Shown here in pieces: positions 1 through 12,492 of a stretch of DNA of 12,492 bases (position 1 is its first letter; every line of letters starts with the position of its first letter). The DNA is from Acidimicrobiales bacterium (GTDB lineage: Bacteria; Actinomycetota; Acidimicrobiia; Acidimicrobiales; VFJN01). The notes below the pieces were generated by a model, which had not been told where the DNA came from, did not search any database, and saw only the letters and a list, made by a program, of their open reading frames with translations. Both the position numbers and the translations under genes were made by a program. The stretch lies in the NCBI GenBank assembly GCA_016936035.1, contig JAFGPU010000457.1, positions 1-12,492 on the forward strand. The letters are read 5' to 3'.

Positions 1-500
1 AGCTCGGCGGCCGTGGCGGTGGCGGACGTGTAGACCATCGCCCGCATCCTGTGCTGGGGGACGAGGCGGGACAGGTGGGTGGCGGCCCCGAGCGCACCCC
101 GGTCGACCTCGGGCAGCCCGAAGGTGGCGTCGTCCGACGCGACGATGATGTCGGCGTTGCCGACCAGCCCGATGCCGCCGCCGAGGCAGTGGCCGTTGAC
201 GGCGGCGATCACCGGCACGGCGCAGTCGTAGATGGCGGCGAACGCGGCGTAGCAGCCGCGGTTGGCGCCGACGAGGGCGTCGAAGCCCTCGGTGGCCTGC
301 ATCTCCTTGATGTCGACCCCGGCGTTGAAGCCGCGGCCCTCGGCCCGCAGCACCACCACCCGCACGGCGTCGTCGGCGCCCAGGTCCCGGACGGTGGTGG
401 CCAGCTCGAACCACCCGGCGACGGTCAGGGCGTTGACCGGGGGGTTGTCCATGACGACCTCGGCGATGCCGCGATCGTCGATGCTGGTGGTGATGGGCAT
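1..500 (-). CDS. echA20: EchA20-type enoyl-CoA hydratase/isomerase (crotonase) family protein, 3' end cut by window
   Basis: Reading leftward from ATG at 500-498, the frame stays open to base 1, giving about 166 residues; the C-terminal third lies outside the window. It is a crotonase-fold acyl-CoA enzyme. The first oxyanion-hole segment is GRGFNAGVDIKEM (55-67) and the second is NGHCLGGGIGL (102-112), followed by FGLPEVDRGALGAATHLSRL (127-146). From memory this resembles mycobacterial EchA20, which hydrolyses a bicyclic CoA ester in steroid ring C/D breakdown. E131 matches the second catalytic Glu of rat crotonase (E164), but the first (E144) is replaced by Gly111. That argues against simple alkene hydration and fits a hydrolase or another specialised reaction. 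A GAGGGG ribosome site precedes the ATG. It is divergent from the SDR gene at 595. The crotonase assignment is firm; the EchA20 orthology is an inference from recalled sequence and gene order. Confidence 0.85.
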   Translation of the reverse strand, partial: MPITTSIDDRGIAEVVMDNPPVNALTVAGWFELATTVRDLGADDAVRVVVLRAEGRGFNAGVDIKEMQATEGFDALVGANRGCYAAFAAIYDCAVPVIAAVNGHCLGGGIGLVGNADIIVASDDATFGLPEVDRGALGAATHLSRLVPQHRMRAMVYTSATATAAE

Positions 501-519
501 GGTCCTACCCCTCGTCGGT

Positions 520-540
520 GGGCCGGGTGCCCTCCGGCCC
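520..540. repeat. 7-bp-arm inverted repeat GGGCCGG/CCGGCCC
   Basis: Perfect 7-bp arms (520-526, 534-540) around a 7-base loop lie in the leader side of the minus-strand crotonase gene, about 20 bp before its ATG. If transcribed, it would form a hairpin in the 5' UTR just upstream of the GAGGGG ribosome site. Its function is unknown, and such repeats occur by chance in DNA this GC-rich. Confidence 0.3.
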
Positions 541-546
541 GCGTTT

Positions 547-561
547 CTGACGGAACGTCAG
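547..561. promoter_or_regulatory. perfect dyad CTGACG-GAA-CGTCAG, probable operator between divergent genes
   Basis: Six-base arms (547-552 and 556-561) are exact reverse complements around a 3-base spacer. The site lies 46 bp from the crotonase start and 33 bp from the SDR start, in the 94-bp divergent intergenic region, so one dimeric repressor could control both genes. Size and symmetry suit a TetR-family operator, common for acyl-CoA catabolic genes in actinobacteria. It does not match the KstR2 half-site pattern CAAG..CTTG. Confidence 0.55.
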
Positions 562-594
562 GTCGCTGTGGCAAGGTAGGCCGAGGGAGGCACG

Positions 595-1377
595 GTGAAC
601 AACCCACTCGACAGCAACAGTCTCGACCACACGGGCAAGGTCGTGCTCGTCACCGGCGGCACCAAGGGCGTCGGCCGGGGCATCGCCGCCCGCTACGACG
701 CCGCGGGCGCAACGGTCGTCGTGTGCGGCCGGCACGCCCCCGAGGGCGAGCCCCCGGCCGCGGCGCCGACCTTCCTGGCGTGCGACGTGCGCGAGCCCGA
801 CCAGGTGACGGCGCTGGTCGACGGCATCGTCGACCGGTTCGGTCGGCTCGACGTCGTCGTCAACAACGCGGGCGGCGCCCCGTGGGCCGACTCGGCCACG
901 GCGTCTCCCCGGTTCAACGAGAAGATCATCGCCCTCAACCTGATCGCGCCGTTCACCGTCGGCCAGGCGGCCAACGCCGTCATGCAGAACCAGGACGACG
1001 GCGGGTCGATCGTGAACATCGCCAGCGTGTCGGGGGTCCGGCCGTCGCCGGGCACCGCGGCCTACGGGGCGGCCAAGGCCGGGCTGCTCAACCTCACCGA
1101 GACGCTCGCCGTCGAGTGGGCGCCCAAGGTGCGGGTCAACGCCGTCGTGGCCGGCATGATCGCCACCGAGCAGGCCCACCTGTTCTACGGCGACGCCACC
1201 GCCCAGGCGCGGGTGGCGGCGACGGTGCCCGCCGGCCGCCTCGGGACTCCCGACGACGTCGCCGGCGCCTGCCTGTTCCTCTCGTCACCGCTGGCGGCCT
1301 ACGTCAGCGGGGCCGCCCTGCGGGTGCACGGCGGCAACGAGCGGCCCGCGTACCTGGCCGCGGCGGCGGGACCGTGA
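595..1377 (+). CDS. short-chain dehydrogenase/reductase (SDR) family oxidoreductase
   Basis: A 260-residue classical SDR of usual length, probably a cytoplasmic NAD(P)-dependent alcohol/ketone oxidoreductase. The Rossmann dinucleotide motif is TGGTKGVGRG (20-29), D64 follows strand 3, and NNAG is at 90-93. The catalytic tetrad is N115, S144, Y157 and K161 (YGAAK). Arg46 after strand 2 (CGRH) hints at NADP(H). The C-terminus has the usual PAGRLGTPDDVAGACLFLSS and a G-rich end. The GTG start was chosen because GGGAGG (585-590) sits 4 bases upstream and the N-terminus begins just before the nucleotide-binding strand. The gene is divergent from the crotonase across a shared dyad. In Mycobacterium tuberculosis, an SDR (Rv3549c) is likewise divergent from echA20 in the KstR2 steroid regulon, so a role in side-chain or ring CoA-ester metabolism is plausible. 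The exact substrate cannot be read from the sequence. Confidence 0.93.
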   Translation: MNNPLDSNSLDHTGKVVLVTGGTKGVGRGIAARYDAAGATVVVCGRHAPEGEPPAAAPTFLACDVREPDQVTALVDGIVDRFGRLDVVVNNAGGAPWADSATASPRFNEKIIALNLIAPFTVGQAANAVMQNQDDGGSIVNIASVSGVRPSPGTAAYGAAKAGLLNLTETLAVEWAPKVRVNAVVAGMIATEQAHLFYGDATAQARVAATVPAGRLGTPDDVAGACLFLSSPLAAYVSGAALRVHGGNERPAYLAAAAGP

Positions 1378-1414
1378 GCGCACGGCGCGACGTCGCGACG
1401 GCGCAGGGTGGCAC

Positions 1415-1453
1415 CGCCGGGCGCCCGATCCCGCAACGGCGGGCGCCCCGGCG
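1415..1453 (+). terminator. strong hairpin downstream of the SDR gene, probable terminator
   Basis: Arms 1415-1427 and 1440-1453 pair over 13 bp with a single bulged base around a 12-base loop. It starts 37 bases after the SDR stop codon. There is no U-tract, which is common for actinobacterial terminator hairpins. It sits between the SDR gene and the promoter of the cupredoxin gene, as expected for a transcription boundary. Confidence 0.5.
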
Positions 1454-1466
1454 ATTCGACAGTGTT

Positions 1467-1483
1467 GCCTTACGCCATAAGGC
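1467..1483. promoter_or_regulatory. perfect dyad GCCTTA-N5-TAAGGC overlapping the cupredoxin promoter
   Basis: Exact 6-bp arms (1467-1472 and 1478-1483) with spacer CGCCA. The dyad ends 6 bases before the proposed -10 box and covers the -35/spacer zone, where a repressor dimer would block RNA polymerase. It is one of the few AT-containing patches in the region. The regulator is unknown; a metal or redox sensor would suit a copper protein, but that is a guess. Confidence 0.4.
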
Positions 1484-1489
1484 CAGGCC

Positions 1490-1495
1490 TAGCCT
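1490..1495 (+). promoter_or_regulatory. -10 box TAGCCT of a leaderless promoter for the cupredoxin gene
   Basis: TAGCCT fits the actinobacterial TANNNT consensus and lies 6 bases before the ATG at 1502, which would put the transcription start at the initiation codon. No Shine-Dalgarno-like run is present in AGCCTCTGCCC, supporting leaderless initiation. A TTGCCT (1465-1470) could act as -35, but the 19-base spacer is long. Confidence 0.45.
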
Positions 1496-1501
1496 CTGCC
1501 C

Positions 1502-1936
1502 ATGACCCGCCGTCGCACCGTCCTGTCCTCGCTGACCGTCCTGCTCGCGCTCGCTGGAGTCGCCGCCTGCGGCGACGACGACGGCGACGCCGGCGACCTG
1601 TCCGGCTCCGGCGACGGCGGCACGGCCGAGGTGCCCGACGACGTGGTGGTGCTCGACGGCGACGACGTGGCGGTCGCCGCCATCGACAACACCTTCCGGC
1701 CCGAGAACGTGCAGGTGGCGCCCGGCACCACCGTGACCTGGAGCAACGACGGCCGCAACGACCACGACGTGCTGCCGGCCGAGGGCGACGCCTGGGGCGT
1801 CGAGGTCGACGGGTTCCAGCCGGGCGACGAGTACTCGTACACCTTCGACGAGCCGGGCGTCTACGACTACTACTGCTCGATCCACGGCACGAAGACGGCC
1901 GGCATGATCGGCACGGTCGTCGTCGCCGAGGACTGA
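1502..1936 (+). CDS. cupredoxin (plastocyanin-like) lipoprotein
   Basis: A 144-residue exported type-1 copper protein. The N-terminus has a basic region (RRR, 3-5), a hydrophobic stretch and a lipobox VAAC with lipidated Cys23, then a flexible Asp/Gly-rich linker (24-47), so it should be anchored on the outer face of the cytoplasmic membrane. The cupredoxin domain (about 56-142) has all four blue-copper ligands: His88 in NDHDV, Cys125 and His128 in YYCSIHG, and Met135 in AGMIG. The C-x2-H-x6-M spacing is slightly longer than in plastocyanin. It may carry single electrons to or from a membrane partner or buffer copper. No oxidase or reductase gene lies beside it; its downstream neighbours are two other lipoproteins. 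Start ATG 1502 is set by the signal peptide and the -10 box just upstream. Confidence 0.92.
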   Translation: MTRRRTVLSSLTVLLALAGVAACGDDDGDAGDLSGSGDGGTAEVPDDVVVLDGDDVAVAAIDNTFRPENVQVAPGTTVTWSNDGRNDHDVLPAEGDAWGVEVDGFQPGDEYSYTFDEPGVYDYYCSIHGTKTAGMIGTVVVAED

Positions 1937-1943
1937 CCGCCGC

Positions 1944-1956
1944 CGCCCGCAGGGCG
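1944..1956 (+). terminator. small hairpin just after the cupredoxin stop
   Basis: CGCCC-GCA-GGGCG, a 5-bp stem with a 3-base loop, begins 7 bases after the stop codon. No U-tract follows. It could weaken read-through into the beta-helix gene 120 bp downstream, but the stem is short. Confidence 0.25.
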
Positions 1957-2056
1957 CACACCCGCGACCCGGCCGCACCACAGCCGTCCGGCAGGCCCGG
2001 CGACTCTCTGCTACAAGCACACCACCGACACCAGCACCACTCCTGGGGGGCACCCG

Positions 2057-3430
2057 ATGACGACCGCACGACGCCTACTCGCCCTACTGCTCGCGAGCGT
2101 GCTCGTGCTCGCAGCCGCCTGCGGATCCGACGACGACGGCGCCGCCGACGACGAGGCCGCGGAGAACGAGGGCGTCACGCTCCACGTCCCCGATGACCAC
2201 GACACCATCCAGGCGGCGGTCGATGCCGCCGCTCCCGGCGACCTGATCCTCGTCGCCCCCGGCACCTACACCGAGGCGGTGAACGTCGAGACCGACGACC
2301 TCACCATCCGGGGCCTCGACCGCAACGAGGTCATCCTCGACGGCGAGTTCGAGCTCGACAACGGCATCCGGGTGCTCGGCGCCGACGGCGTGGCCATCGA
2401 GAACATGACCGCCCGCAACTACACCAACAACGGGTTCTTCTGGACGGGGGTGGACGGGTACCGGGGCTCGTACCTGACCGCCTACCGCACCGGCGACTAC
2501 GGCGTCTACGCGTTCGACTCGACCAAGGGACTGCTCGAGCACAGCTACGCCTCGGGCAGCCCCGACGCCGGCTTCTACATCGGGCAGTGCTTCCCGTGCG
2601 ACGCCGTCATCGACGACGTCGTGTCCGAGTTCAACGGGCTCGGCTACTCCGGCACCAACTCCGGCGGCAACCTGCTCATCGTCAACTCGACGTTCCGCAA
2701 CAACCGGGCGGGTGTCGTGCCCAACTCGGGCAGCTACGAGCTCTGCTACCCCGAGCGCGAGACGACCATCGTCGGCAACCTGGTGTACGACAACAACCAG
2801 TCCGACTCGCCCGCCATCGACGTGGCCTACGACGCCCAGGGCAACGGCATCCTCGTCGCCGGCGGGGTCGGCAACATCATCGAACGCAACCGCGTGTGGG
2901 ACCACGACCTCACCGGCATCGGGCTCGTCCCCTTCCCCGAGAGCGACGCCAACGACGTGGTGCCGCCGCCCGAGGACGACGACCAGCCGTGCAGCGAGGC
3001 CCAGGGCGAGCCCACGGCCGATCCCGCCGACATCCCCGAGTCCGTGCTGTGGAACCCGCGGGGCAACAGCGTGGTCGGCAACGTCGTCGAGGACTCGCGC
3101 CTGGCCGACATCGCCGTCGGGTCGCTCGAGGACGTCTCCGGCATGGAGAACTGCTTCTCCGACAACGACCACGCCACCAGCGCGCCGGCCGATCTCGAGG
3201 CGCTGGCGCCGTGCGACGGCGAGGGCAGCGACGGCGACTGGTCCACCGGAGCGCTCGACTTCGGGCCCTTCCTCGCCGAGAAGCCGCCCTCGGGCGACTA
3301 CAAGACGTCGCCGGTGCCCGATCCGCAGGAGAACATGCCCGACGCCGACACGGCGCCTGCGAACCCGGCCCGCGGCGTGCCGCCCACCGTCGACGTCGAT
3401 GCCATCGAGGTGCCGGACATGCCGTCGTGA
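2057..3430 (+). CDS. right-handed parallel beta-helix repeat lipoprotein (NosD/CASH-like)
   Basis: A 457-residue surface lipoprotein. The signal peptide (basic 5-6, hydrophobic 7-21) ends at Cys22 (LAAAC), followed by an acidic linker to about 39. A pectate-lyase-like N-cap, DTIQAAVDAAAPGDLILVAPGTY (49-71), leads into successive beta-helix rungs (about 75-290) with recurring N-rich turns such as ENMTARNYTNNG, IVNSTFRNNRAG, IVGNLVYDNNQ and IIERNRVWDHDLTG. A last rung-like piece (GNSVVGNVVEDSRLADIAV) follows an acidic Pro-rich insertion. The C-terminal ~80 residues are Pro/Asp-rich and probably disordered. A CFPC motif (178-181) lies within GFYIGQC; other cysteines suggest disulfides. Beta-helix proteins of this type bind or cleave polysaccharides, or in NosD assist copper-enzyme maturation; no catalytic residues are identifiable. 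SD GGGGGG lies 6 bases before the ATG. The stop overlaps the DUF1996 start. Confidence 0.88.
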   Translation: MTTARRLLALLLASVLVLAAACGSDDDGAADDEAAENEGVTLHVPDDHDTIQAAVDAAAPGDLILVAPGTYTEAVNVETDDLTIRGLDRNEVILDGEFELDNGIRVLGADGVAIENMTARNYTNNGFFWTGVDGYRGSYLTAYRTGDYGVYAFDSTKGLLEHSYASGSPDAGFYIGQCFPCDAVIDDVVSEFNGLGYSGTNSGGNLLIVNSTFRNNRAGVVPNSGSYELCYPERETTIVGNLVYDNNQSDSPAIDVAYDAQGNGILVAGGVGNIIERNRVWDHDLTGIGLVPFPESDANDVVPPPEDDDQPCSEAQGEPTADPADIPESVLWNPRGNSVVGNVVEDSRLADIAVGSLEDVSGMENCFSDNDHATSAPADLEALAPCDGEGSDGDWSTGALDFGPFLAEKPPSGDYKTSPVPDPQENMPDADTAPANPARGVPPTVDVDAIEVPDMPS

Positions 3431-4407
3431 CGCTGGGTGGGTCGACTGCGGGGCCGCCGGACCGGAGCGGTGCCGGCGCCCCGCATCGCCGCCAGCGGTG
3501 CGTTGGCCGAGCCCGGCTCGCGTCCCTGCTGGTCGCCGCCGTGACGATCGCTGCGGTGGCGGCCGGGTGCGGGGGCGCCGGATCCGACGATGCCGCCTCG
3601 GACGGCGACGTCCCCGCCGTCTCCCCGGTCCGCCTGTCGCCCACCGAGCCGGGGCCCCAGGGGCGGGTGCCCCAGTTCGTCGTCGAGTGCGGGTTCAGCC
3701 ACGCGGGCCCCGACGACCCGATCGTCCACCCCGGCCACAGCGGCCGCTCGCACCAGCACGTCTTCTTCGGCAACACCACCACCGACGCGGACTCGACCGT
3801 CGACACCCTCGCCGCCGGCGGAACCACCTGCGACCAGCAGCTCGACCTGGCCTCGTACTGGGCGCCGGCGCTGCTCGACCACGGTCGCGTCGTCGAGCCC
3901 ACCCACGCCGTGGCCTACTACCGGCCCGGGGTGGGCATCGACCCGGCCACCGTCGAGCCCTACCCGTACGGCCTGAAGATGCTGGGCGGCGACCAGGTGG
4001 CGGCGCGGCCGCAGTCGCTTGACGTCGTCGCCTGGTCGTGCGGCACCGGCTCGGTGCGCGAGGCCACGCCGCCCACCTGCCCGGACGGGCGCCCGCTGCG
4101 CATGGCGGTGAGCTTCCCCGACTGCTGGGACGGCGAGCGGCTCGACAGCCCCGACCACGTGGCGCACACCGCCCGCAGCGACGAGGGTGCCTGTCCCGAC
4201 TCGCACCCCGTGCCGATGCCCCAGCTGCTGCTCACCATCTCGTACCCGATCACGGGCGCGGGCCACGACCTGAGCCTGGCCTCGGGGTCGCTGCTCACCG
4301 GCCACGCCGACTTCTTCAACGCCTGGGACGAGGACAAGCTGCGCACCGAGGTCGACCTGTGCATCCGCCGGGGCCTGACCTGCGGCGTGGCCAGCAACCG
4401 CACCTGA
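3427..4407 (+). CDS. DUF1996 domain-containing lipoprotein
   Basis: About 326 residues from a GTG that overlaps the preceding stop (GTGA, 3427-3430), implying translational coupling with the beta-helix gene. The reading frame is open further upstream, but that part is antisense-like Arg-rich sequence overlapping the beta-helix gene. The start is supported by a basic n-region (20-30), a hydrophobic core (31-47) and lipobox AAGC with Cys48. The DUF1996 domain spans about 80-320. It has the hallmark HPGHSGRSHQHVFFGN (101-116), then SYWAP (143-147), PDCWDG, SHPVPMPQL and GHADFFNAWD near the end, with paired cysteines. DUF1996 occurs in secreted fungal and actinobacterial proteins and has no established biochemistry. 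The His cluster could bind metal, notable beside a copper protein, but this is inference. SD support is weak, consistent with coupling. Confidence 0.88.
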   Translation: MTLGGSTAGPPDRSGAGAPHRRQRCVGRARLASLLVAAVTIAAVAAGCGGAGSDDAASDGDVPAVSPVRLSPTEPGPQGRVPQFVVECGFSHAGPDDPIVHPGHSGRSHQHVFFGNTTTDADSTVDTLAAGGTTCDQQLDLASYWAPALLDHGRVVEPTHAVAYYRPGVGIDPATVEPYPYGLKMLGGDQVAARPQSLDVVAWSCGTGSVREATPPTCPDGRPLRMAVSFPDCWDGERLDSPDHVAHTARSDEGACPDSHPVPMPQLLLTISYPITGAGHDLSLASGSLLTGHADFFNAWDEDKLRTEVDLCIRRGLTCGVASNRT

Positions 4408-4416
4408 CCGGCGCGT

Positions 4417-4441
4417 CCCGTCCCCGCGTGTCAGGGACGGG
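4417..4441. terminator. bidirectional hairpin between convergent genes
   Basis: A perfect 8-bp stem, CCCGTCCC (4417-4424) with GGGACGGG (4434-4441), around a 9-base loop. It lies 10 bases after the DUF1996 stop and overlaps the last codons and stop of the convergent minus-strand gene. Being symmetric, it could terminate both transcripts. No U-tract. Confidence 0.5.
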
Positions 4442-5123
4442 CGTACGCGGACGCGTAGGCGGGGACCTCGGGGCGGCCCCGCAGGTCGTCGGCGGCCACG
4501 GGCGCGCCCGCGACCGTCGCGAGCGGGACGACACCGGCCCAGACGGGCAGGTCCATGTCGCGGGGCTCGTCCTCGGGCCCGCCGGTGCGCACCTTGACCG
4601 AGCACTCGTCCAGGGGCAGAGACAGCACGAGGGTGGCCCGAAGCTCGCGCTCGTCGGGTGGCCGCACGTCGACGGACCGGCCCGGCAGGATGTGGTCGAC
4701 CAGCAGGTCGAGCGCCGCCCGCCGATCGGCCAGGTCGTCGACGGCGACCGCACGGCCGAACACCACCACCGAGCGGTAGTTCATCGAGTGGTGGAACGCC
4801 GAGCGAGCCAGCACGAGACCGTCCACCAGCGTGACCGTGACGCACAGCTCGGCGCCCTTGGCGGCCCCGCGGATCAGCCGGCTGGCCGCCGAGCCGTGCA
4901 GCAGCAGCCGGTCGCCGTTGCGCCCGTAGAGCATGGGGATGACCACCGGCCCGTCGGCGGTCGCCATGCCGACGTGCGCCACCATGCCCTCGTCGAGGAT
5001 GGCGTGGGCGGCCGCCCGGTCGTACGACCCGCGCTCGGGGACGCGGCGCACGGTGGCGCGGACGGACGGTGGCGGGGCGGGCGACTCGGGGTCGGTCCCG
5101 GCAGGCGAGGTGGGGGTCGGCAC
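4431..5123 (-). CDS. pyridoxamine 5'-phosphate oxidase family (NimA-like) flavin-binding protein
   Basis: A 230-residue cytoplasmic split-barrel flavoprotein of the Pyridox_ox_2/NimA type. After a Pro/Ser-rich N-terminal tail (1-20), the family opening RRVPERGSYDRAAAHAILDEG (26-46) leads to HVGMATADGPVVIPMLYGR (50-68), the probable phosphate-binding HGSAASR (76-82), and FHHSMNYRSVVVFGRA in the second half. Relatives bind FMN (or F420/haem in sister families), and some reduce nitro compounds; the substrate here is unknown. The GTG start at 5123 is favoured by TACCCT 7 bases upstream, a leaderless -10 arrangement, with no ribosome site. The 20-residue tail is dispensable for the fold, so a GTG at codon 21 is an alternative start. 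It converges on the DUF1996 gene and is divergent from the DGPF/ECF42 operon, so it is probably a separate unit. Confidence 0.87.
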   Translation of the reverse strand: MPTPTSPAGTDPESPAPPPSVRATVRRVPERGSYDRAAAHAILDEGMVAHVGMATADGPVVIPMLYGRNGDRLLLHGSAASRLIRGAAKGAELCVTVTLVDGLVLARSAFHHSMNYRSVVVFGRAVAVDDLADRRAALDLLVDHILPGRSVDVRPPDERELRATLVLSLPLDECSVKVRTGGPEDEPRDMDLPVWAGVVPLATVAGAPVAADDLRGRPEVPAYASAYARP

Positions 5124-5130
5124 GGGGCGA

Positions 5131-5136
5131 AGGGTA
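5131..5136 (-). promoter_or_regulatory. -10 box TACCCT, leaderless promoter of the NimA-like gene
   Basis: Read on the minus strand, TACCCT is followed by TCGCCCC (7 bases) and the GTG start at 5123, the spacing expected when transcription starts at the initiation codon. No Shine-Dalgarno sequence and no clear -35 hexamer are visible. Confidence 0.4.
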
Positions 5137-5280
5137 GGAGTGCTCCGCCGGGCGAGCGAGAGAGTTGCGGGGCGGCAGCCGGTGGTGGTCCCCTGGCGGG
5201 GCGTTCACCCGTCCGGGATGCGCCGAGCCGGGTGCCCATCTCGCACCACTGACCGGCGGCGCTCTTCCCTGTGACCAGAA

Positions 5281-5307
5281 TGTCGAGGATGCGTCGGCTG
5301 ATCCGAC
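5281..5307 (+). promoter_or_regulatory. ECF42-type promoter TGTCGA-N17-CGAC for the DGPF-sigma operon
   Basis: TGTCGA at 5281-5286 and CGAC at 5304-5307 are separated by 17 bases, a normal ECF spacing. The bipartite TGTCGA / CG(A/T)C pattern is the one I recall being reported for ECF42 sigma factors in Streptomyces venezuelae, where DGPF genes are the targets. Transcription would begin near 5314, leaving a leader of about 43 nt with AAGGAG (5345-5350) before the ATG. This implies positive autoregulation by the downstream sigma factor. Confidence 0.6.
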
Positions 5308-5356
5308 ATCTGGTCGAGGCGCCGCACCGGGCGCCCGGACCGACAAGGAGCGATCG

Positions 5357-5719
5357 ATGAAGTACATGCTGCTGATCTACGGCAACGAGGAGCTGTGGAA
5401 CTCCTTCCCCCAGGAGGAGCTCGCCGAGGTGATCCGCCAGACCGACGCTCTCCAGCAGGAGCTGCGCGAGTCGGGTGAGTTCGTCGGGGCCTGGGGCGTC
5501 GCCGACCAGGTGAACGCGAAGACCGTGCGGCTGCAGGACGGGGCGCCGGTCGTGACCGACGGCCCCTACATCGAGGCCAAGGAGTACCTCGGGAGCTTCG
5601 ACATCATCGACTGCGAGAGCGAGGAGCGGGCTCTCGAGATCGCCGCCCGGGTGCCCTTTGCCCGGTTCGGCTCGGTGGAGGTGCGGCCCCTCATGGCCGA
5701 GGCCGCGCCCGAGGTGTGA
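5357..5719 (+). CDS. DGPF/YCII-domain protein, partner of ECF42 sigma factor
   Basis: A 120-residue soluble protein of the YCII/DGPF family, covering the whole domain: MKYMLLIYGNEE at the N-terminus, an amphipathic helix (18-39), the name-giving turn as DGPY (68-71) instead of DGPF, then AKEYLGSFDIIDC (74-86) and a C-terminal helix plus strand ending EVRPLMA. It is a ferredoxin-like alpha-beta fold with no established activity; the DGPF proteins studied as ECF42 targets also remain functionally unclear. AAGGAG 6 bases upstream fixes the ATG at 5357 over the longer open frame upstream, which is not protein-like. The stop overlaps the sigma factor GTG by 4 bases (GTGA), so the two are one operon, headed by an ECF42-like promoter. 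Confident in family and pairing; function unknown. Confidence 0.92.
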   Translation: MKYMLLIYGNEELWNSFPQEELAEVIRQTDALQQELRESGEFVGAWGVADQVNAKTVRLQDGAPVVTDGPYIEAKEYLGSFDIIDCESEERALEIAARVPFARFGSVEVRPLMAEAAPEV

Positions 5720-6963
5720 GGCCGAGCCCTCGCGTCGAGGACCTGCTGCGTGAGCTCGCGCCGCAGGTCCTCGGCGCGCTGGTGCGGCGCTACGGGCACT
5801 TCGACGCCTGCGAGGACGCCGTGCAGGAGGCGCTGCTGGCCGCCGCCCTGCAGTGGCCCGAGCAGGGACGTCCGGCCAACCCCCGGGCGTGGCTCGTCAC
5901 GGTGGCCTCGCGCCGTCTCACCGATCAGCTCCGCAGCGACGAGTCCCGGCGGCGGCGCGAGGACGTCACGGCCGCCCGGGAGCCGGCCGACGAGCTGCTG
6001 GCGGCCGGGCCCGACGCCGCCGCCCCGGTCGACCGCGACGACACGCTGACCCTGCTGTTCCTGTGCTGCCACCCGGCCCTGACCCCGGCCTCGCAGGTGG
6101 CGCTGACGCTGCGCGCGGTGGGCGGCCTCACCACCGCCGAGATCGCCCGCGCGTTCCTCGTCCCCGAGGCGACCATGGCCCAGCGCATCAGCCGGGCCAA
6201 GCAGCGCATCAAGGCGGCCGGCACCACGTTCGAGATGCCCCCCGAGTCCGAGCGCGACGCCCGGCTGCGGGTGGTGCTCCACGTGCTCTACCTCATCTTC
6301 AACGAGGGCTACACGACCTCGTCGGGTCCCGAGCTCCAGCGCAGCGACCTGACGGCGGAGGCCATCCGGCTGACCCGCGCCGTGCACCGGCAGCTGCCCG
6401 ACGACGGCGAGGTGGCGGGCCTGCTGGCGCTCATGCTGCTCTCCGACGCTCGCCGCCCGGCCCGCACGGGCCCCACCGGCGAGCTGATTCCGCTCGCCGA
6501 GCAGGACCGCTCGCTGTGGGACCGGCGGTCGATCGCCGAGGGGGTCGAGGTGATCACCCGGGCGCTGGCGACGACGCGACTCGGGCCGTACCAGCTGCAG
6601 GCAGCCATCGCCGCGGTGCACGACGAGGCGTCTCGGGCCGAGGACACCGACTGGCCCCAGATCCTGGGGCTGTACGACCTGCTCGACAAGGTGGCACCGA
6701 GCCCCGTGGTCACGCTGAACCGGGCGGTCGCGGTGGCGATGGTGCGGGGACCGCAGGCCGGTCTCGACCTGCTCGCCGAGCTCGATGCCGACGACCGGAT
6801 GGCCGGCAGCCACCGCCTGGTGTCGGTCCGCGCCCACCTGCTCGAGATGGCGGGCGACACCGAGGCGGCGGTGGCCGGCTACCGGGACGCGGCCCGCCGC
6901 ACGACCAGCCTGCCCGAGCAGCGCCACCTCGAGGCGCGAGCGCGCCGGCTGACGGACCGGTGA
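5716..6963 (+). CDS. ECF42-group RNA polymerase sigma factor with C-terminal TPR-like extension
   Basis: A 415-residue sigma factor, about twice the length of a simple ECF. Region 2 (about 10-80) includes YGHFDACEDAVQEALLAA (26-43) and PRAWLVTVASRRLTDQLR (56-73). After a variable linker comes TLLFLCCHPALTP (112-124), a hallmark of this group, and region 4 with helix-turn-helix LTTAEIARAFLVPEATMAQRI (138-158). The remaining ~240 residues form the all-helical extension (DUF6596/TPR-like) with VLYLIFNEGY (190-199), LMLLSDARRPAR (239-250) and TLNRAVAVAM. ECF42 proteins lack a classical anti-sigma factor, and the extension is thought to control activity. The GTG start overlaps the DGPF stop. Likely targets are its own operon and perhaps other DGPF genes. 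The gene ends flush against a convergent second ECF gene, with no terminator between them. Confidence 0.94.
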   Translation: MRPSPRVEDLLRELAPQVLGALVRRYGHFDACEDAVQEALLAAALQWPEQGRPANPRAWLVTVASRRLTDQLRSDESRRRREDVTAAREPADELLAAGPDAAAPVDRDDTLTLLFLCCHPALTPASQVALTLRAVGGLTTAEIARAFLVPEATMAQRISRAKQRIKAAGTTFEMPPESERDARLRVVLHVLYLIFNEGYTTSSGPELQRSDLTAEAIRLTRAVHRQLPDDGEVAGLLALMLLSDARRPARTGPTGELIPLAEQDRSLWDRRSIAEGVEVITRALATTRLGPYQLQAAIAAVHDEASRAEDTDWPQILGLYDLLDKVAPSPVVTLNRAVAVAMVRGPQAGLDLLAELDADDRMAGSHRLVSVRAHLLEMAGDTEAAVAGYRDAARRTTSLPEQRHLEARARRLTDR

Positions 6964-8040
6964 TCACGATCGACCGAGCGTGGTCGGCAGGCCGAACGCC
7001 GGGAACAGCTCGGCACCGAAGGTGGTGATCTCGGCCACGGTGCCGCCCTCGATGCGCAGCACGTCGAACTTGAACGCCCGGAACTCGGTGTCGTCCCACT
7101 GCCGCAGGTAGCTGGCGGCGGTCGGCTGGCGGTTGGCGCGGGTGGGCACCAGGCGCCACTCGCCCGGCTGGTCCTCGCCGAAGGCCTGGGCGAGCAGGGT
7201 CTGCAGCTCGTCGATCCCCTGGTACACCATCGGGTGCGGCGGCATGGTGATGCGGATGTCGTCGCGCACCATCGCCAAAGCCGCGGCCGTGTCTCCCCGC
7301 TCGTGCGACTCGATGAAGCGCGCCAGCAGGTCGCGCTCGGCCTCGGTCGCCTCGGCGGTGCGCCACTCGAGGCGCCCCGAGGGCAGGCGGGCCTGCATCG
7401 TCGCCCGGGCGCGCTGCAGGGCGCTGTTGGTGGCGGCGACGGATGCGCCGAGCAGCGACGCGGTGTCGGCGGCCGACCAGCCGAGCAGGTCGCGGGCGAT
7501 GAGGGCCACCCGCTGCCGGGGCGGGAGCACCTGCAGGGCGGCGATCAAGGCGAGCTCGATCGTCTCGCGGGTGACGACCGCCGCGTCCGGCTCGTCGTCG
7601 TCCGACGCCACCTGGTCGAGCAACCGGTCGGGGTAGGGCTGCAGCCACGGGATCTCGTCGTGACCGGCGGCGACGGGAACCCGACGGGCGCTGCGCCGCA
7701 GGGCGTCGAGGCAGGCGTTGGTGGCGATGCGGTACAGCCACGCCCGGAACAGCGGCCCTCCCGAGAAGCTGTCGCGCTTGCGCCAGGCCCGCAGGAAGGT
7801 CTCCTGCACCATGTCCTCGGCCTCCTCGTACGAGCCGAGGATGCGGTAGCAGTGCACGTGCAGCTCGCGCTCGTGGCGACCCACGAGCGCGGCGAACGCC
7901 GTCTCGTCACCGCCGACCGCCGCCGCCACGAGCGGGTCGACGTCGCCCTCACCCGGTGCGGGTCCGGACGCGCCCGGGTCACGATCGGACACCTGCGCCG
8001 GTTGCATGCCGGTACGACCCCGGGCGCGGCGCGAACTCAT
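6964..8040 (-). CDS. ECF sigma factor with SnoaL-like C-terminal domain (SigG/SigX5-like)
   Basis: 358 residues from ATG 8040, or 347 from ATG 8007 (Met12); neither has a convincing ribosome site, so the start is uncertain. Region 2 (about 36-105) has HCYRILGSYEEAEDMVQETFLRAW (63-86) and FRAWLYRIATNACLDALRR (98-116). The linker carries IPWLQPYPDRLLDQV (130-144), typical of the SigG/SigX5 subgroup. Region 4 (about 160-225) has LPPRQRVALIARDLLGWSAADTASLLG (172-198). Residues about 230-355 are a SnoaL-like NTF2-fold domain with ITMPPHPMVYQG and LVPTRANRQP, ending FPAFGLPTTL. In related ECFs this extension modulates core-polymerase binding in place of an anti-sigma factor. It follows the phosphodiesterase gene by 55 bp on the same strand. 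Its stop codon abuts that of the convergent ECF42 gene. Confidence 0.93.
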   Translation of the reverse strand: MSSRRARGRTGMQPAQVSDRDPGASGPAPGEGDVDPLVAAAVGGDETAFAALVGRHERELHVHCYRILGSYEEAEDMVQETFLRAWRKRDSFSGGPLFRAWLYRIATNACLDALRRSARRVPVAAGHDEIPWLQPYPDRLLDQVASDDDEPDAAVVTRETIELALIAALQVLPPRQRVALIARDLLGWSAADTASLLGASVAATNSALQRARATMQARLPSGRLEWRTAEATEAERDLLARFIESHERGDTAAALAMVRDDIRITMPPHPMVYQGIDELQTLLAQAFGEDQPGEWRLVPTRANRQPTAASYLRQWDDTEFRAFKFDVLRIEGGTVAEITTFGAELFPAFGLPTTLGRS

Positions 8041-8049
8041 CGCACTGCC

Positions 8050-8069
8050 GCGCCGGTGGTCGCCGGCGC
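8050..8069 (-). terminator. 7-bp hairpin between phosphodiesterase stop and SnoaL-ECF start
   Basis: Arms GCGCCGG (8050-8056) and CCGGCGC (8063-8069) pair perfectly around a 6-base loop. On the minus strand it begins 26 bases after the phosphodiesterase stop and ends 9 bases before the sigma ATG at 8040. It may terminate or attenuate read-through, or mask that start; in the latter case the ATG at 8007 would be favoured. Confidence 0.4.
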
Positions 8070-8095
8070 CGGGGCGTCCGGGGGCTGCGACGTGC

Positions 8096-9709
8096 TCACA
8101 CGTCGACGTAGATGAAGCCGTAGGCCTCGTCGCGGTGGGGGATGCCGGTCGAGGCCAGGGCCGGGGCCCAGTCGCCGGTGACCTCGGGGTTGCTGTCCTC
8201 CATGCCGTGGTCGGCGACGAGGAAGAACGCCGTGCGGTCCCAGGCGCCCGAACGCTCGACGGCGTCGAGCACCTGGCCGAGCCGGGCGTCGCTGTCGTGG
8301 ATGCTGGCCCGGGCGATGTCGGCGTAGGGCCCGCTTTGGTGGAAGGCGGCGTCGGTCAGGGTGAAGTTCACGAACGTGAACCGGGGCAGCGGCGCCCCGT
8401 CGGCCGATCGGCCGTCGCGAGCCCCGTCCCAGACGTCGAGCGCCTGGACCATGCCGGTGTGGTCGATGCGCGACGCCACCTCGTAGGACTTCTCGGGGCG
8501 CACGAAGCGCTCGGTGGCGAACGGCAGGTCCTCGGCCCGCGGGGGCCGGCCCAGGTCGCCGCCGGTGCGCAGCACCTCGAACGTCGAGTAGTCCGCCCCG
8601 ACGTCGCACGGCTCGTTGATCGACACCGTGCGCGCCCCCGGGAACGCCCGGTGCACCGCCTGGTGGATGGTCTCGACCTGCGGCGACAGGGTCTGCATCG
8701 ACCACGGCCACGTGACCGGCGAGTTGGTGACCACCTGCTGGCCGGTGGACCGGTCGTACCAGGCGTTGTGGAGGACCCCGTGATGGCCCGGGTGGGCGCC
8801 GGTGAGGATGGTGGTGTGGTTGGCCAGCGTCACCGACGGCAGCGACGCCATGGCCCCGTGACCCATGCCGGTGCCCATGGCGAGCAGGCGAGCCAGGTGG
8901 GGCACCTCGCCGGCGGCCAGCATGTCGTAGAGCACGTTGGCGTTGGTGCCGTCCCACAGGAAGCCGATGACGTGGTCGGGGCGACGAACGCCCGGGTCGA
9001 GCAGCTCGGTCAGCACCCGGCCGTCCTGGCGGGCGACCAGGGCGTCGTCGAGCGGCGCCCCCGTCGGCCCCGTGCCCCGCAGCGTGGGCTCGGCGCCGAG
9101 CAGCGCCAGCACCGTGGGGGCGACGTCGACGAGCCGGCACGACCGGGGGATGAGCCCCTGGTCGCGCACCCCGGCGCCGGCGAGCACGAACGGCGCCCGC
9201 ACCTGCACGATGCCGAGGGACCCGTGCTCGCCGCGCTCGCCGCCGTGGTCCTCCCAGTTGTGGGCGGCGGTGTGCAGGCACACCAGGTCGGGCGCCGCCG
9301 GGTGGTCGAACAGCTGGGCGATGTGCTCGTGCGCGTGGGGGTACGACTGCTCGGTGCGCGCCGGCCACCGGTTGTCGATCTCGTCGGCCAGCGAGGCGAA
9401 CCGGTCGGTGGCCGTGTCGGCCAGCGGGTTGCGCCCCTCGACCCGAGTCTCGACGAACCGCCAGCCGGTGCCACCGGCCGCCGCCCCGCTCGTGTCGGCC
9501 TCGCGGCGGAAGCGCACCCGGCCGTCGACGGCCCGCACGTCGTAGCCCTCGTCGTCCGTGGTCACGACCAGGTCCACGATCGGTTCGAGCGCGACGTCGA
9601 GCAGCGCGTCGGCGGTCCGCCGCACCCGGTCGGGATCGGGCGCCCGGTACCCCACGGGGCGGGGCGCGGCCTCGGCCGTGGACGTGCGGTCCCGGTCTGC
9701 CAGCGCCAT
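8096..9709 (-). CDS. alkaline-phosphatase-superfamily phosphodiesterase/phosphatase with circularly permuted motif order
   Basis: 537 residues, no signal peptide. Residues 244-503 read as the front of a type I phosphodiesterase/nucleotide pyrophosphatase domain: D253 (FLWDGTN), nucleophile T294 in SLPSVTLANHTTILTG (289-304), D453-x3-H457 (TLTDAAFH) and D500/H501 (VADHGM). The chain ends 34 residues later, so the last metal-site histidine and the closing strand are missing there. They occur instead at the N-terminus: H162 in GEHGSL, then VRAPFVLAGAGV (170-181) and VDVAPTVLALLG (194-205), normally the C-terminal end. The protein therefore appears to be a natural circular permutation joined through about residues 206-243. 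It probably hydrolyses phosphomono- or diesters with two divalent metals; the substrate is unknown. Start ATG 9709 lies 8 bases after TACCGT (leaderless-like). The open frame continues upstream, but that sequence is antisense of the YihY gene. Confidence 0.88.
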   Translation of the reverse strand: MALADRDRTSTAEAAPRPVGYRAPDPDRVRRTADALLDVALEPIVDLVVTTDDEGYDVRAVDGRVRFRREADTSGAAAGGTGWRFVETRVEGRNPLADTATDRFASLADEIDNRWPARTEQSYPHAHEHIAQLFDHPAAPDLVCLHTAAHNWEDHGGERGEHGSLGIVQVRAPFVLAGAGVRDQGLIPRSCRLVDVAPTVLALLGAEPTLRGTGPTGAPLDDALVARQDGRVLTELLDPGVRRPDHVIGFLWDGTNANVLYDMLAAGEVPHLARLLAMGTGMGHGAMASLPSVTLANHTTILTGAHPGHHGVLHNAWYDRSTGQQVVTNSPVTWPWSMQTLSPQVETIHQAVHRAFPGARTVSINEPCDVGADYSTFEVLRTGGDLGRPPRAEDLPFATERFVRPEKSYEVASRIDHTGMVQALDVWDGARDGRSADGAPLPRFTFVNFTLTDAAFHQSGPYADIARASIHDSDARLGQVLDAVERSGAWDRTAFFLVADHGMEDSNPEVTGDWAPALASTGIPHRDEAYGFIYVDV

Positions 9710-9717
9710 GGAGCGGC

Positions 9718-9723
9718 ACGGTA
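9718..9723 (-). promoter_or_regulatory. -10 box TACCGT, possible leaderless promoter of the phosphodiesterase gene
   Basis: On the minus strand, TACCGT precedes the ATG at 9709 by 8 bases (GCCGCTCC), with no Shine-Dalgarno run between. It fits TANNNT and the same architecture as the cupredoxin and NimA-like genes. No good -35 hexamer at 16-18 bases is visible. Confidence 0.35.
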
Positions 9724-9782
9724 CCGGAACGGCGTCACGCTCGGCGCCCCTTCGGGGAACGCAGGAGTGCGTCCGACGCGAG

Positions 9783-9830
9783 CCCGGCGTCCGGCCGGGG
9801 ACCGCGCGTGGGTTCCCGAGATGGGCTCGG
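9783..9830 (-). terminator. hairpin pair downstream of the YihY gene
   Basis: Two stems lie in the 137-bp gap after the YihY stop: CCGAG-N5-CTCGG (9816-9830), 16 bases past the stop, and CCCGGC-N5-GCCGGG (9783-9799). Neither has a U-tract. Together they could end the YihY transcript before the phosphodiesterase promoter. The rest of the gap shows nothing else recognisable. Confidence 0.35.
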
Positions 9831-9846
9831 CGCCCGGCCGGTGGCG

Positions 9847-10845
9847 CTACGACCGCTTCTTCGCGGTCGACGGCCCCACCGTGTCGGCGGCGTACGCGTC
9901 GCGCTCGCCGAGGGGCTGGGCCGACCCGGTGGTCGTGTCGCGGGCTGTCTGCCGCTCGAGCTCCGCGTTGACCTCGGCGCCGGCGATGACGGCGTACGCG
10001 GAGATGAACAACCAGAGCATGACGACGACGACCGCGCCGAGCGCACCGTAGGTCTCGTTGTAGCTGCCGAAGTTGGCCGTGTAGATCGAGAACGCCACCG
10101 AGGCCACGAGCCACACGACGGTGGCCACCAGCGCGCCGACCGACACCCACTGCCAGCGGGCGTGCTCGCGGTCGGGGGCCCACCGGTAGAGGGCGGCGAG
10201 CGCCGCCAGCGCGACCACGGCCAGGAGCGGCCAGCGGACCACGAGCAGCACGATCCGGAGCGCGCCCTCGGCGCCGCTGCTGTCGAGCGCGTTGGGCAGC
10301 ACGAGCAGGCCGGCCACGGCCACCGCCGCGACCACGATGGCCCCGACCGTCAGCGCCAGCGCCATGCCCCGCAGCCTGAGAAAGCCGCGGCCCTCGGTCT
10401 CGTCGTAGGCCAGGTTGATCGCGCCCATCAGGTGCTTCATGCCGCTCGACGCCGACCACAGGGCGACGACCAGGCCGACGACCACGCCGAGCTGCAGGCC
10501 CGACGGCTCGCTCTCGACGATCGACGACAGCTGCGAGCTCACGAGCTCGCGCACCTCGGTGGGCGCGGCGCTGAGCGCGTCGTCGATGTTGCGCTCGATG
10601 TCGGCGGGGTCGGCGACGAGCCCGTAGACCGACACCAGGGCGACCAGGGCGGGGACGAGCGCCAAGAGGGCGAAGAACGCCACGCCGGCGGCCAGCAGCG
10701 GCACGGCGTCGAGCTTGAACTGCTCCTTGACCCGGACGGCCACGTCCTTCCACCCCCGCGGCGGCACCTGCAGCGGGGTCGTCGCACCCCGCCCGCGGTT
10801 GCGCCCCTCGTCACGGAGGTACGAGGACGACGCAGCGTCGGTCAT
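9847..10845 (-). CDS. YihY/virulence factor BrkB family integral membrane protein
   Basis: 332 residues. After a hydrophilic N-terminus (1-30), the family opening GWKDVAVRVKEQFKLDAVPLLAAGVAFFALLALVPALVALVSVYG (31-75) includes transmembrane segment 1. Five further segments are visible at about 116-137 (with the conserved SASSGMKHLMGAINLAYD following), 162-187, 198-222, 233-258 and 265-287. The last contains GALGAVVVVMLWLFISAYAVIAGAEVNAELE, the family's most conserved end. The tail (290-332) is charged. The family was once called ribonuclease BN by mistake and has no settled function; transport or envelope roles are suggested. ATG 10845 was chosen because it begins just before the family-typical N-terminus; the frame extends a further 34 codons upstream without homology-like sequence. 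No ribosome site is evident. It lies between PhoX and the phosphodiesterase on the same strand. Confidence 0.92.
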   Translation of the reverse strand: MTDAASSSYLRDEGRNRGRGATTPLQVPPRGWKDVAVRVKEQFKLDAVPLLAAGVAFFALLALVPALVALVSVYGLVADPADIERNIDDALSAAPTEVRELVSSQLSSIVESEPSGLQLGVVVGLVVALWSASSGMKHLMGAINLAYDETEGRGFLRLRGMALALTVGAIVVAAVAVAGLLVLPNALDSSGAEGALRIVLLVVRWPLLAVVALAALAALYRWAPDREHARWQWVSVGALVATVVWLVASVAFSIYTANFGSYNETYGALGAVVVVMLWLFISAYAVIAGAEVNAELERQTARDTTTGSAQPLGERDAYAADTVGPSTAKKRS

Positions 10846-10910
10846 GACAGGTGCGTACCCGCTGGCGGCCCCGGCATGCAGAAGTTCTCGGCCGCCGTCC
10901 CCCCTTTCGC

Positions 10911-10943
10911 CGTCCGCTGGCCCGCCCCTGCAGGCGGCGGACG
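10911..10943 (-). terminator. hairpin downstream of the PhoX-type gene
   Basis: CGTCCGC (10911-10917) pairs with GCGGACG (10937-10943), and an inner CGCC/GGCG stem (10923-10926, 10933-10936) stacks on it with a 5-base bulge on one side. It begins 10 bases past the stop codon on the minus strand and lies in the 108-bp gap before YihY. No U-tract follows, so termination is plausible but unproven. Confidence 0.4.
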
Positions 10944-10953
10944 CCACGCCGGG

Positions 10954-12417
10954 TCACACGCCGATGCGCCCCCACGGGCCCCAGATCGCGATGGTCATGC
11001 CGCGACCCGACTGGATGTTGACGAACAGCGTGCGGCCGTCAGGGCTGAACGTGGCGCCGGCGAACTCGTCGCCGAAGCGACCGGGCAACCGGTTGAGGGC
11101 GATGTCCCACAGCTGACCGTGGCGGGACAGGCCCCGCACGTAGTTGTCACCGCTGCTGTCCTCGCACAGCACGAGGGTGCCCCGCCTGCTGGTCGTGACG
11201 TTGTCGGGCAGGTCGAGCACGTCGGGGCCTGGGGACTGGAAGACGAGTCGCAGGCGCTCGGACGCCGGGTCGTACGCCCACACCTGGCCGCTGCCGTTGC
11301 CGAAGCCGTCGCCGACCGGCCCGGGCCCCGACTCCGCCTGACCCCCGCCCTGGGTCGACGTGAAGTAGACGAGGCCGCGGTCGTAGACGGCGCCCTCCAG
11401 GCGCGAGAACCATGCGGCACCTCGGGCCCGCCCCTGGTCGCCGACGTAGCGAATGGCCGTGTTGTTGGTCGTCGGAGCCGGCTCACCGGGGGTGTGGGGG
11501 AACGTCGGATCGGGATCGTCGATGTCGACCCAGACCACCGGGTAGGTGGCACCGTCGGGCTGGTGGGCGGCCAGGTTGGCCTCGGGCACCCCCGCGACGG
11601 CGAGCATCTGCAGGCGCCCGCCGTCGGTCAACCTGCCACCGGCCATCGGGTCGTCGTCCGGCAGGTAGCGGTAGAAGCCCGACGCGAATCCGAAGTTGTC
11701 CTCGGTCATGTAGAGCGCGCCGCCTGCCGGGTCGTAGGCCACCGCCTCGTGCGCGAACCGCCCGGCCGCCGTGATGGGCTGCCGCGACGCCTGGCCGCCC
11801 GCCGGCACCTCGAACACGTACCCGTGGCGCTGGGTGAGCGGCACGTTGGACGCTCCGGTGAAGTCGGCGCCGACGTCGGGGCCGTTGACGGTCTCCTCGC
11901 AGGTGACCCAGCTGCCCCACGGCATGACACCGCCCGCGCAGTTCATCTGGGTGCCGTTGAGGCTGGTGTAGGCGCGGATCACCTCGCCGTGCGGCGTGGT
12001 CTCGATGGTGGTCGTGCCGCCGCCCGCCATCGCGTCGTAGGCCGCGCCCGCATCGCCGAAGGCGGGTACCGGGTTGTTGACCTCGTGGTTGCGTACGAGC
12101 ACGACGTTCCCGTCGGGGCCCGGGAACGCCGCCATGCCGTCGTGTCGGCCGGGCAGGATCGTTTCGTCGTCGAGCGTGACGGTGCTCTCGGTGTCGTGGA
12201 ACGAGCGGTAGGCGAACCCGTCGGGCAGCCACAGTCGCACGACGCCGTCGCGCAGGTCGGCCACGGGGCCGAGGGTCGGTTGCGGCGTCGCGGCGCCGGC
12301 GGGACGCGCGATGACGCCGGCGAAGGGGCCCGCGAGGGCGGCGCCACCGGCGACGGCGGCGGACCCGGCGATGAACCGGCGCCGATCGATGCGTGTGGGC
12401 GCTCTCATACCAGCCAT
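10954..12417 (-). CDS. PhoX-family (DUF839) Tat-exported alkaline phosphatase
   Basis: 487 residues. A twin-arginine signal, RIDRRRFIAGSAAVAG (9-24), is followed by a hydrophobic stretch and a likely cleavage site near AGAA (40-43), so it is exported folded. PhoX enzymes are Ca/Fe-dependent beta-propeller phosphatases that release phosphate from organic esters. Family landmarks visible: GRHDGMAAFPG (90-100), RNHEVNN (109-115), NCAGG (159-163), SWVTCEET (169-176, with the Cys/Glu group expected at the iron centre), GRFAHEAVAYDP (219-230), LYMTEDN (235-241), LEGAVYDRGLVYFTSTQGG, LCEDSSGDNY (417-426) and FAGATFSPDGRTLFVNIQ. The architecture looks complete. ATG 12417 is preceded by AGGGGGAG with a 4-base gap; ATG 12408 is the alternative. 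The enzyme may equally act on other esters, as DUF839 is broad. It is followed downstream by YihY and a second phosphatase-fold gene. Confidence 0.92.
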   Translation of the reverse strand: MAGMRAPTRIDRRRFIAGSAAVAGGAALAGPFAGVIARPAGAATPQPTLGPVADLRDGVVRLWLPDGFAYRSFHDTESTVTLDDETILPGRHDGMAAFPGPDGNVVLVRNHEVNNPVPAFGDAGAAYDAMAGGGTTTIETTPHGEVIRAYTSLNGTQMNCAGGVMPWGSWVTCEETVNGPDVGADFTGASNVPLTQRHGYVFEVPAGGQASRQPITAAGRFAHEAVAYDPAGGALYMTEDNFGFASGFYRYLPDDDPMAGGRLTDGGRLQMLAVAGVPEANLAAHQPDGATYPVVWVDIDDPDPTFPHTPGEPAPTTNNTAIRYVGDQGRARGAAWFSRLEGAVYDRGLVYFTSTQGGGQAESGPGPVGDGFGNGSGQVWAYDPASERLRLVFQSPGPDVLDLPDNVTTSRRGTLVLCEDSSGDNYVRGLSRHGQLWDIALNRLPGRFGDEFAGATFSPDGRTLFVNIQSGRGMTIAIWGPWGRIGV

Positions 12418-12476
12418 GTGTCTCCCCCTGGTTGCGATGGTGGCGCAGATCGTGGCACGCAGACGCGTCGCGATGG

Positions 12477-12490
12477 GCGAAAAGCGAAAC
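12477..12490. repeat. tandem 7-bp repeat GCGAAAA-GCGAAAC upstream of the PhoX-type gene
   Basis: Two adjacent near-identical heptamers (12477-12483, 12484-12490) lie 60-73 bp upstream of the PhoX-type start, in the only A-rich patch of its promoter region. Phosphate-response regulators bind direct repeats, but the spacing differs from known PHO boxes. The window ends here, so the full pattern cannot be seen. Confidence 0.25.
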
Positions 12491-12492
12491 CT

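Follow-up and report, generated by a model that had tools for sequence, protein, structure and literature searches.

Block order and a conserved predicted two-metal site point to a circularly permuted alkaline phosphatase/NPP-superfamily enzyme in Acidimicrobiales

The window analysed here is a 12,492-nucleotide stretch of an Acidimicrobiales bacterium genome (assembly GCA_016936035.1, contig JAFGPU010000457.1, positions 1 to 12,492), and our subject is one gene within it, at 8096..9709 on the minus strand, which encodes a 537-residue protein and runs from an ATG at 9709 to a TGA at 8096-8098. Its product is very probably a circularly permuted enzyme of the type I phosphodiesterase/alkaline phosphatase (AlkP/NPP) superfamily with a complete two-metal site. 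Its open reading frame (ORF) matches PF01663, and the block that closes the chain in normally ordered relatives (B) precedes the block that opens it (A), a swap that is conserved in a large family. A first-pass annotation of the window, made from the letters and a list of reading frames, had proposed such an order from the arrangement of the motifs; profile-profile comparison, the extent of the PF01663 match and a confident whole-chain predicted fold support it.

Results

All features of the gene given below lie on the minus strand. The B block (residues 26-236, 9002..9634), which corresponds to the C-terminal block in relatives of normal order and is predicted to hold the last metal ligand, was delimited with N-block searches and profile-profile comparison, its boundaries being set by eye from sequences and the secondary structure of the model. 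The A block (residues 244-537, 8099..8980) corresponds to the N-terminal part of an NPP (residues 44-295 of the Xanthomonas enzyme), as placed by structure alignment, PF01663, profile-profile comparison and alignment with that enzyme. Residues 1-25 (9635..9709) form a variable tail that differs among homologues; because of this variation, and because residues 1-11 have a predicted local distance difference test score (pLDDT) below 50, the exact start codon is unproven.

The evidence for permutation comes from searching with the two blocks separately. The whole protein matches PF01663 at 117.9 bits (cut-off 23), over profile positions 1-226 of 342 only (residues 247-508), and the C-block alone scores 120.5 bits against the same Pfam family, while residues 1-238 alone give no Pfam match at E ≤ 1. 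A profile of nine N-blocks was run against 396 genomes of the phylum, 71 of which contain a match at E ≤ 0.001, and the 30 loci returned (L036-L065) were examined with separate N-block and C-block models. Twelve of them (L036-L047, the window's own locus being L036) have the order B-A. Another 15 (L051-L065) have the order A-B, with the N-block model matching their C-terminal end at 28-46 bits, and the remaining three (L048-L050) are larger proteins that read B-A-B-A once whole ORFs are taken. Shuffling the residues of 40 ORFs from L051-L065 (the 15 A-B genes included) 1,200 times produced no N-block match at E ≤ 10. In hhalign comparisons with a profile of seven normal-order proteins (A4), N-block columns 114-196 of 228 fall on template columns 350-445 of 476 (E = 1.1e-12, 41% identity over 80 columns, with GEHGS placed on GGHGS), and the C-block falls on template columns 68-292 (E = 7.3e-16). 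The two blocks match complementary parts of the same unpermuted proteins, in swapped order, and the swapped pattern recurs when the blocks are compared with the inner domain in the giants described below, where the C-block match is strong (E = 3.8e-21). The unpermuted sisters that the first-pass annotation suggested looking for do exist, as the A-B proteins of L051-L065 and as a copy in the window's own genome. This copy (G000:C387) is a normal-order PF01663 protein, for which profile positions 1-340 were matched in one run. In one B-A locus, L045 of genome G110, the permuted gene is split over two frames by an apparent frameshift.

Conservation was assessed in 232 family proteins (the best 120 of 1,733, which include the window's, plus 112 others taken from the best 120 of 754) and in the 80 best named loci among 128 relatives found in GTDB genomes; structure alignment A1 comprises 86 sequences, namely 80 of the 232 at <76% mutual identity and six from loci. 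The predicted lone metal-ligand His, H162 (9224..9226, in GEHGSL), aligns with the His of GGHGS in the C-terminal part of unpermuted proteins, and it stands first here and last in normal NPPs. The remaining predicted ligands, which align with the Xanthomonas NPP, are D253 (8951..8953, on the DG motif), D453 (8351..8353), H457 (8339..8341) and D500-H501 (8207..8212, in ADHGM), and the predicted nucleophile is T294 (8828..8830, in PSVTLANH). H162, D253, T294, D453 and H457 are identical in 232/232 family proteins and 80/80 named loci; D500/H501 are kept in 231/232 and in 79/80, one locus having a gap. We take the corresponding residues of the Xanthomonas enzyme to be D54, T90, N111, D210, H214, D257, H258 and H363. 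All seven ligand and nucleophile positions are therefore occupied, as the first-pass annotation had stated, and since they are near-invariant across the 232 proteins the motif order is not due to chance. The order of ordinary NPPs (D, T, D, H, D, H, then H) is not kept: the His comes first in every one of the 232 proteins and the 80 loci, all of which read B then A, so homologues share the arrangement and the protein is a permuted relative, not an ordinary PF01663 member. The positions originally given for H155, H162, D253, T294, D453, H457, D500, H501 and H525 hold, whereas the chain ends 36 residues after H501, and not 34 as first counted. The first-pass annotation had offered H162, or else H155, as the last ligand; H162 is invariant, but H155 is His in just 68/232 family proteins. 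H525, the other candidate it named, is His in 56/232, and its position is F, V or Y in 64/80 named loci. As neither H155 nor H525 is conserved, both are unlikely as ligands.

The predicted whole-chain model has a pLDDT of 94.5 and a predicted template modelling score (pTM) of 0.94 over both blocks, and it favours one superfamily domain built from the two, in which H162 would pack at the metal site. Sequential structure aligners place the C-terminal block on relatives in the PDB and never align the N-block core; three of 50 structure-alignment rows begin at residues 205-208, inside the final 30 residues of that block. Sequential aligners would be expected to leave its core unaligned, which is no sign of an unknown fold. 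No match at E ≤ 0.001 came from a library of viral structures.

The joint between the blocks lies at about residues 237-243 (8981..9001), where, by eye comparison with unpermuted C-termini and with the giants L066-L069, an old C-terminus (RQDGRVLTELL) meets an old N-terminus (HVIGFLWDG). Unpermuted C-termini resemble the former, with forms such as GRVLDELL and AQGRVLDELL. The new C-terminus follows the strand YGFIYV and the new N-terminus precedes the helix RVRRTADALL (residues 26-36), and by eye, from sequences and model secondary structure, these two elements appear to be chain neighbours in normal proteins. We propose that the old C-terminal block, with the lone metal-ligand His, would have moved to the front, that some seven residues would link it to the old N-terminal block, which would bring the Thr nucleophile and the five remaining ligands, and that the new termini would have opened in the loop beyond the GFIYV strand. 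B and A would then fold as a single superfamily domain carrying the full two-metal site. The permutation may have arisen by duplication and truncation.

If the chemistry follows that of NPPs, two metals, probably zinc, would activate T294 for attack on a phosphate ester, and the covalent intermediate would then be hydrolysed. N315 (8765..8767; 99.1% in the 232-protein set) aligns with the Asn of HGIVHN in the Xanthomonas enzyme, the NPP-type Asn after the nucleophile (HGxxxN), which we presume to be N111 and to contact a phosphoryl oxygen. By this analogy a phosphodiester or pyrophosphate is the most likely substrate, because N315 and its motif follow NPP. The likeness of the A block to the Xanthomonas enzyme at both the nucleophile and the HGxxxN Asn would favour a diesterase over a monoesterase.

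Giant relatives with the order B1-A1-B2-A2 (L066:2086-5619, L067:213-4121, L068:325-4317 and L069:1226-4951) appear to carry a complete normal NPP domain at the joint of the permuted enzyme. They were confirmed in four genomes of the phylum sample (G060, G069, G138 and G341), and in the family of G060 the block is present in 2/16 genomes. Both ligand sets are conserved, and two of the four proteins end in LPxTG-like motifs. The loci L048-L050 were first read as B-A-B because they had been cut, and a B-A-B duplication intermediate was dropped when whole ORFs read B-A-B-A. Trees were built from 25 permuted proteins, 17 of 60 aligned giants and normal proteins numbering 13, then 12, for A and 9 for B. 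Segments were cut by scripted rules, apart from L061, L063 and P0278 A2, which were adjusted manually; every A2 segment was also extended at its N-end. CAN_L019, which the A tree placed within the permuted group with a branch of 2.68, was removed from it and the tree rerun; the B tree was made without CAN_L019, L020, L023 and L028, which have no reliable B segment. B1 and A2 group with the permuted family, and A1 and B2 with the normal family. We think it probable that the giants are nested two-enzyme proteins, with a normal NPP (A1-B2) inside a permuted one (B1...A2), both sites kept, and that they are secreted, with Ig-like and, in some of them, LPxTG-like tails. The window protein, unlike these relatives, is probably cytoplasmic, because by eye it has no obvious signal peptide. 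Four long B-A proteins of 654-970 amino acids (P0305-P0308) branch one after another as sisters to the giants' A2 clade in the A tree, with supports of 81-95 with CAN_L019 and 50-86 without it; the corresponding group of the B tree has a support of 41. Three of the four are lipoprotein-like; they have C-terminal or N-terminal extensions and possibly come from other phyla.

Several results weigh against a permuted superfamily member. The hhalign match to A4 spans N-block columns 114-196 only, and homology for the first half of B is a by-eye reading; the N-block match to the giants' inner domain is weak (hhalign probability 76, E = 2.2e-5). When the N-block profile was searched against PDB sequences, the best superfamily match was ENPP4 at E = 0.054, outranked by two plainly false designed beta-trefoil chains. 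The A-block bipartition was not recovered while the rogue CAN_L019 was in the tree. The equivalog cut-offs of NF042991 (PafA, 650 bits) and TIGR02335 (PhnA, 407.55 bits) lie far above the scores of the window protein, 48.6 and 41.5 bits, and at the latter score the name phosphonoacetate hydrolase, which one source often gives to the permuted family, is unsupported. The sub-threshold ENPP4 match does have the His motif aligned, and LtaS, iPGM, sulfatases and PafA follow more weakly with beta-trefoil designs interspersed; with all its superfamily matches sub-threshold and such designs above and among them, this search was not used as proof of homology. One could also suppose that the N-terminal block forms an accessory domain of its own, with H525 completing an incomplete or unusual site, and the blank in Pfam over the N-block and the unplaced core in the structure aligners would fit such a view. 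We give it very little credence: H525 is too variable (see the counts above), H162 never varies, the N-block is a homologue of the block that ends other superfamily chains, and the pTM of the model spans both blocks. Neither H525 as the last ligand nor an unrelated N-terminal domain, which the first-pass annotation had named as fatal to a permutation, was borne out. An assembly, frame or binning artefact of a metagenome-assembled genome (MAG) might be suspected from a source genome that is 68% complete in 555 contigs and from a protein cluster with one member, but it is already refuted by relatives with the same order, and we assign it next to no weight. All 80 named loci, including L094 on a 2.96 Mb contig, share the order; the one-contig genome G008 matches colinearly over residues 22-536; and N-block matches at E ≤ 1e-15 occur in 61/296 genomes of the window's class, one each, the A/B order not having been rechecked individually in these.

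Accepting that the family is permuted, the relation between its short and giant forms can be read in more than one way. The giant could be ancestral, a circularly permuted tandem two-enzyme protein from which the short B-A form arose by loss of the inner enzyme; the grouping of B1 and A2 with the permuted family and of A1 and B2 with the normal one fits this history, as does the position of the inner domain exactly at the joint. We nevertheless regard it as unlikely, though it deserves some weight, since the long B-A proteins P0305-P0308 branch as successive sisters of giant A2, at the supports given above, so that a single insertion would account for the pattern more simply than repeated losses. 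The linear B-A-B-A order also reads, at first sight, as two permuted units in plain tandem, B1 with A1 and B2 with A2; the trees place B1 and A2 with the permuted family and A1 and B2 with the normal one, and we consider this reading decidedly improbable. Insertion of a normal NPP into a permuted enzyme is the history we prefer, and if it is true the permuted joint served as the port at which an entire sister enzyme was inserted.

Record titles of the named loci are mostly Acidimicrobiia, Acidimicrobiales or Actinomycetota/Actinomycetes MAGs. Three contigs titled 'Bifidobacterium breve' (L082, L100 and L103) carry permuted-family genes, which are otherwise found under Acidimicrobiia titles. 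The nearest named relative whose neighbours are conserved, L071, bears the title 'Thermoanaerobacterales'; these four titles may reflect mislabelled bins. In genome G011 the permuted-family copy is spread over two contigs (L017 and L027).

Gene neighbourhoods were compared in 69 sequences (the window and 68 of the 80 named loci, each of at least 7 kb) with a crude ORF caller, many of whose clusters are antisense ORFs; no functional partner or pathway was indicated in this set. Clusters recognised by eye as rplM, rpsI and glmM lie near the permuted gene in 28/69 sequences each, and on the other side stand truA (21/69), rpoA and rplQ (20 each), rpsD (17), rpsK (15) and rpsM (14). In many relatives (e.g., L094, L099, L114 and L132) the permuted gene sits on the opposite strand between the truA-rplQ-rpoA-rpsD and rplM-rpsI-glmM sides. 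The window differs in lacking this setting. Here, a PhoX-type alkaline phosphatase gene (PF05787, 218.5 bits; 10954-12417) lies two genes upstream on the same strand as the enzyme, with a BrkB-family membrane protein gene (9847-10947) between them, and two ECF sigma factor genes (one with a SnoaL-like tail, one with a DUF6596 tail) and a YCII gene adjoin the enzyme at 5354-8040. L071 gave no tblastn match at E ≤ 1e-10 to the window's ECF sigma factor and YCII genes, and has pyridoxamine-oxidase-like, DUF1996, beta-helix and cupredoxin genes immediately adjacent to the enzyme gene.

Discussion

Enzyme evolution and promiscuity have a standard test system in the AlkP superfamily, whose described members, to the best of our knowledge, all share one motif order. 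A conserved natural permutant with a complete site lets the effect of block order on folding and rate be tested, and also informs which loops accept new ends. A single phylum contains normal, permuted and nested forms side by side, so that how a permutation spreads in a lineage becomes a testable question. The swapped order also accounts for a failure of annotation, in which Pfam covers the A block only and one source often applies the phosphonoacetate hydrolase name. A search of open-licence papers (subscription papers and preprints lay outside its scope) found no natural permutation in the superfamily; the alkaline-phosphatase-like entry of a survey of structural outliers is an insertion (PMC3779223), and a paper on a permuted SGNH hydrolase is unrelated to AlkP/NPP permutation (PMC9487903).

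Compared with known systems, the protein stands apart in the order of its blocks. The Xanthomonas NPP (PDB 7n1s, 2gsn and 7mw8; PF01663) has the opposite order, with its lone His near the C-terminus, whereas in the window protein that His is residue 162 of 537 and both the termini and the joint are new. The PafA and SPAP/PhoK alkaline phosphatases (5tj3 and 3q3q) likewise have the normal order, unlike the window protein. PhnA (TIGR02335; 1ei6 and 3szy) shares with it the superfamily and the A-block motifs, with the order reversed. A further comparison is with the normal AlkP proteins of the same phylum (L051-L059 and L063) and with the copy in the window's own genome, in which both blocks are homologous to those of the window protein but run A then B instead of B then A. 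The cpRAS circularly permuted GTPases (PMC2430557) record the same type of event, a natural permutation of an enzyme domain with a scattered phylogeny, in a different fold and, unlike the window protein, in eukaryotes.
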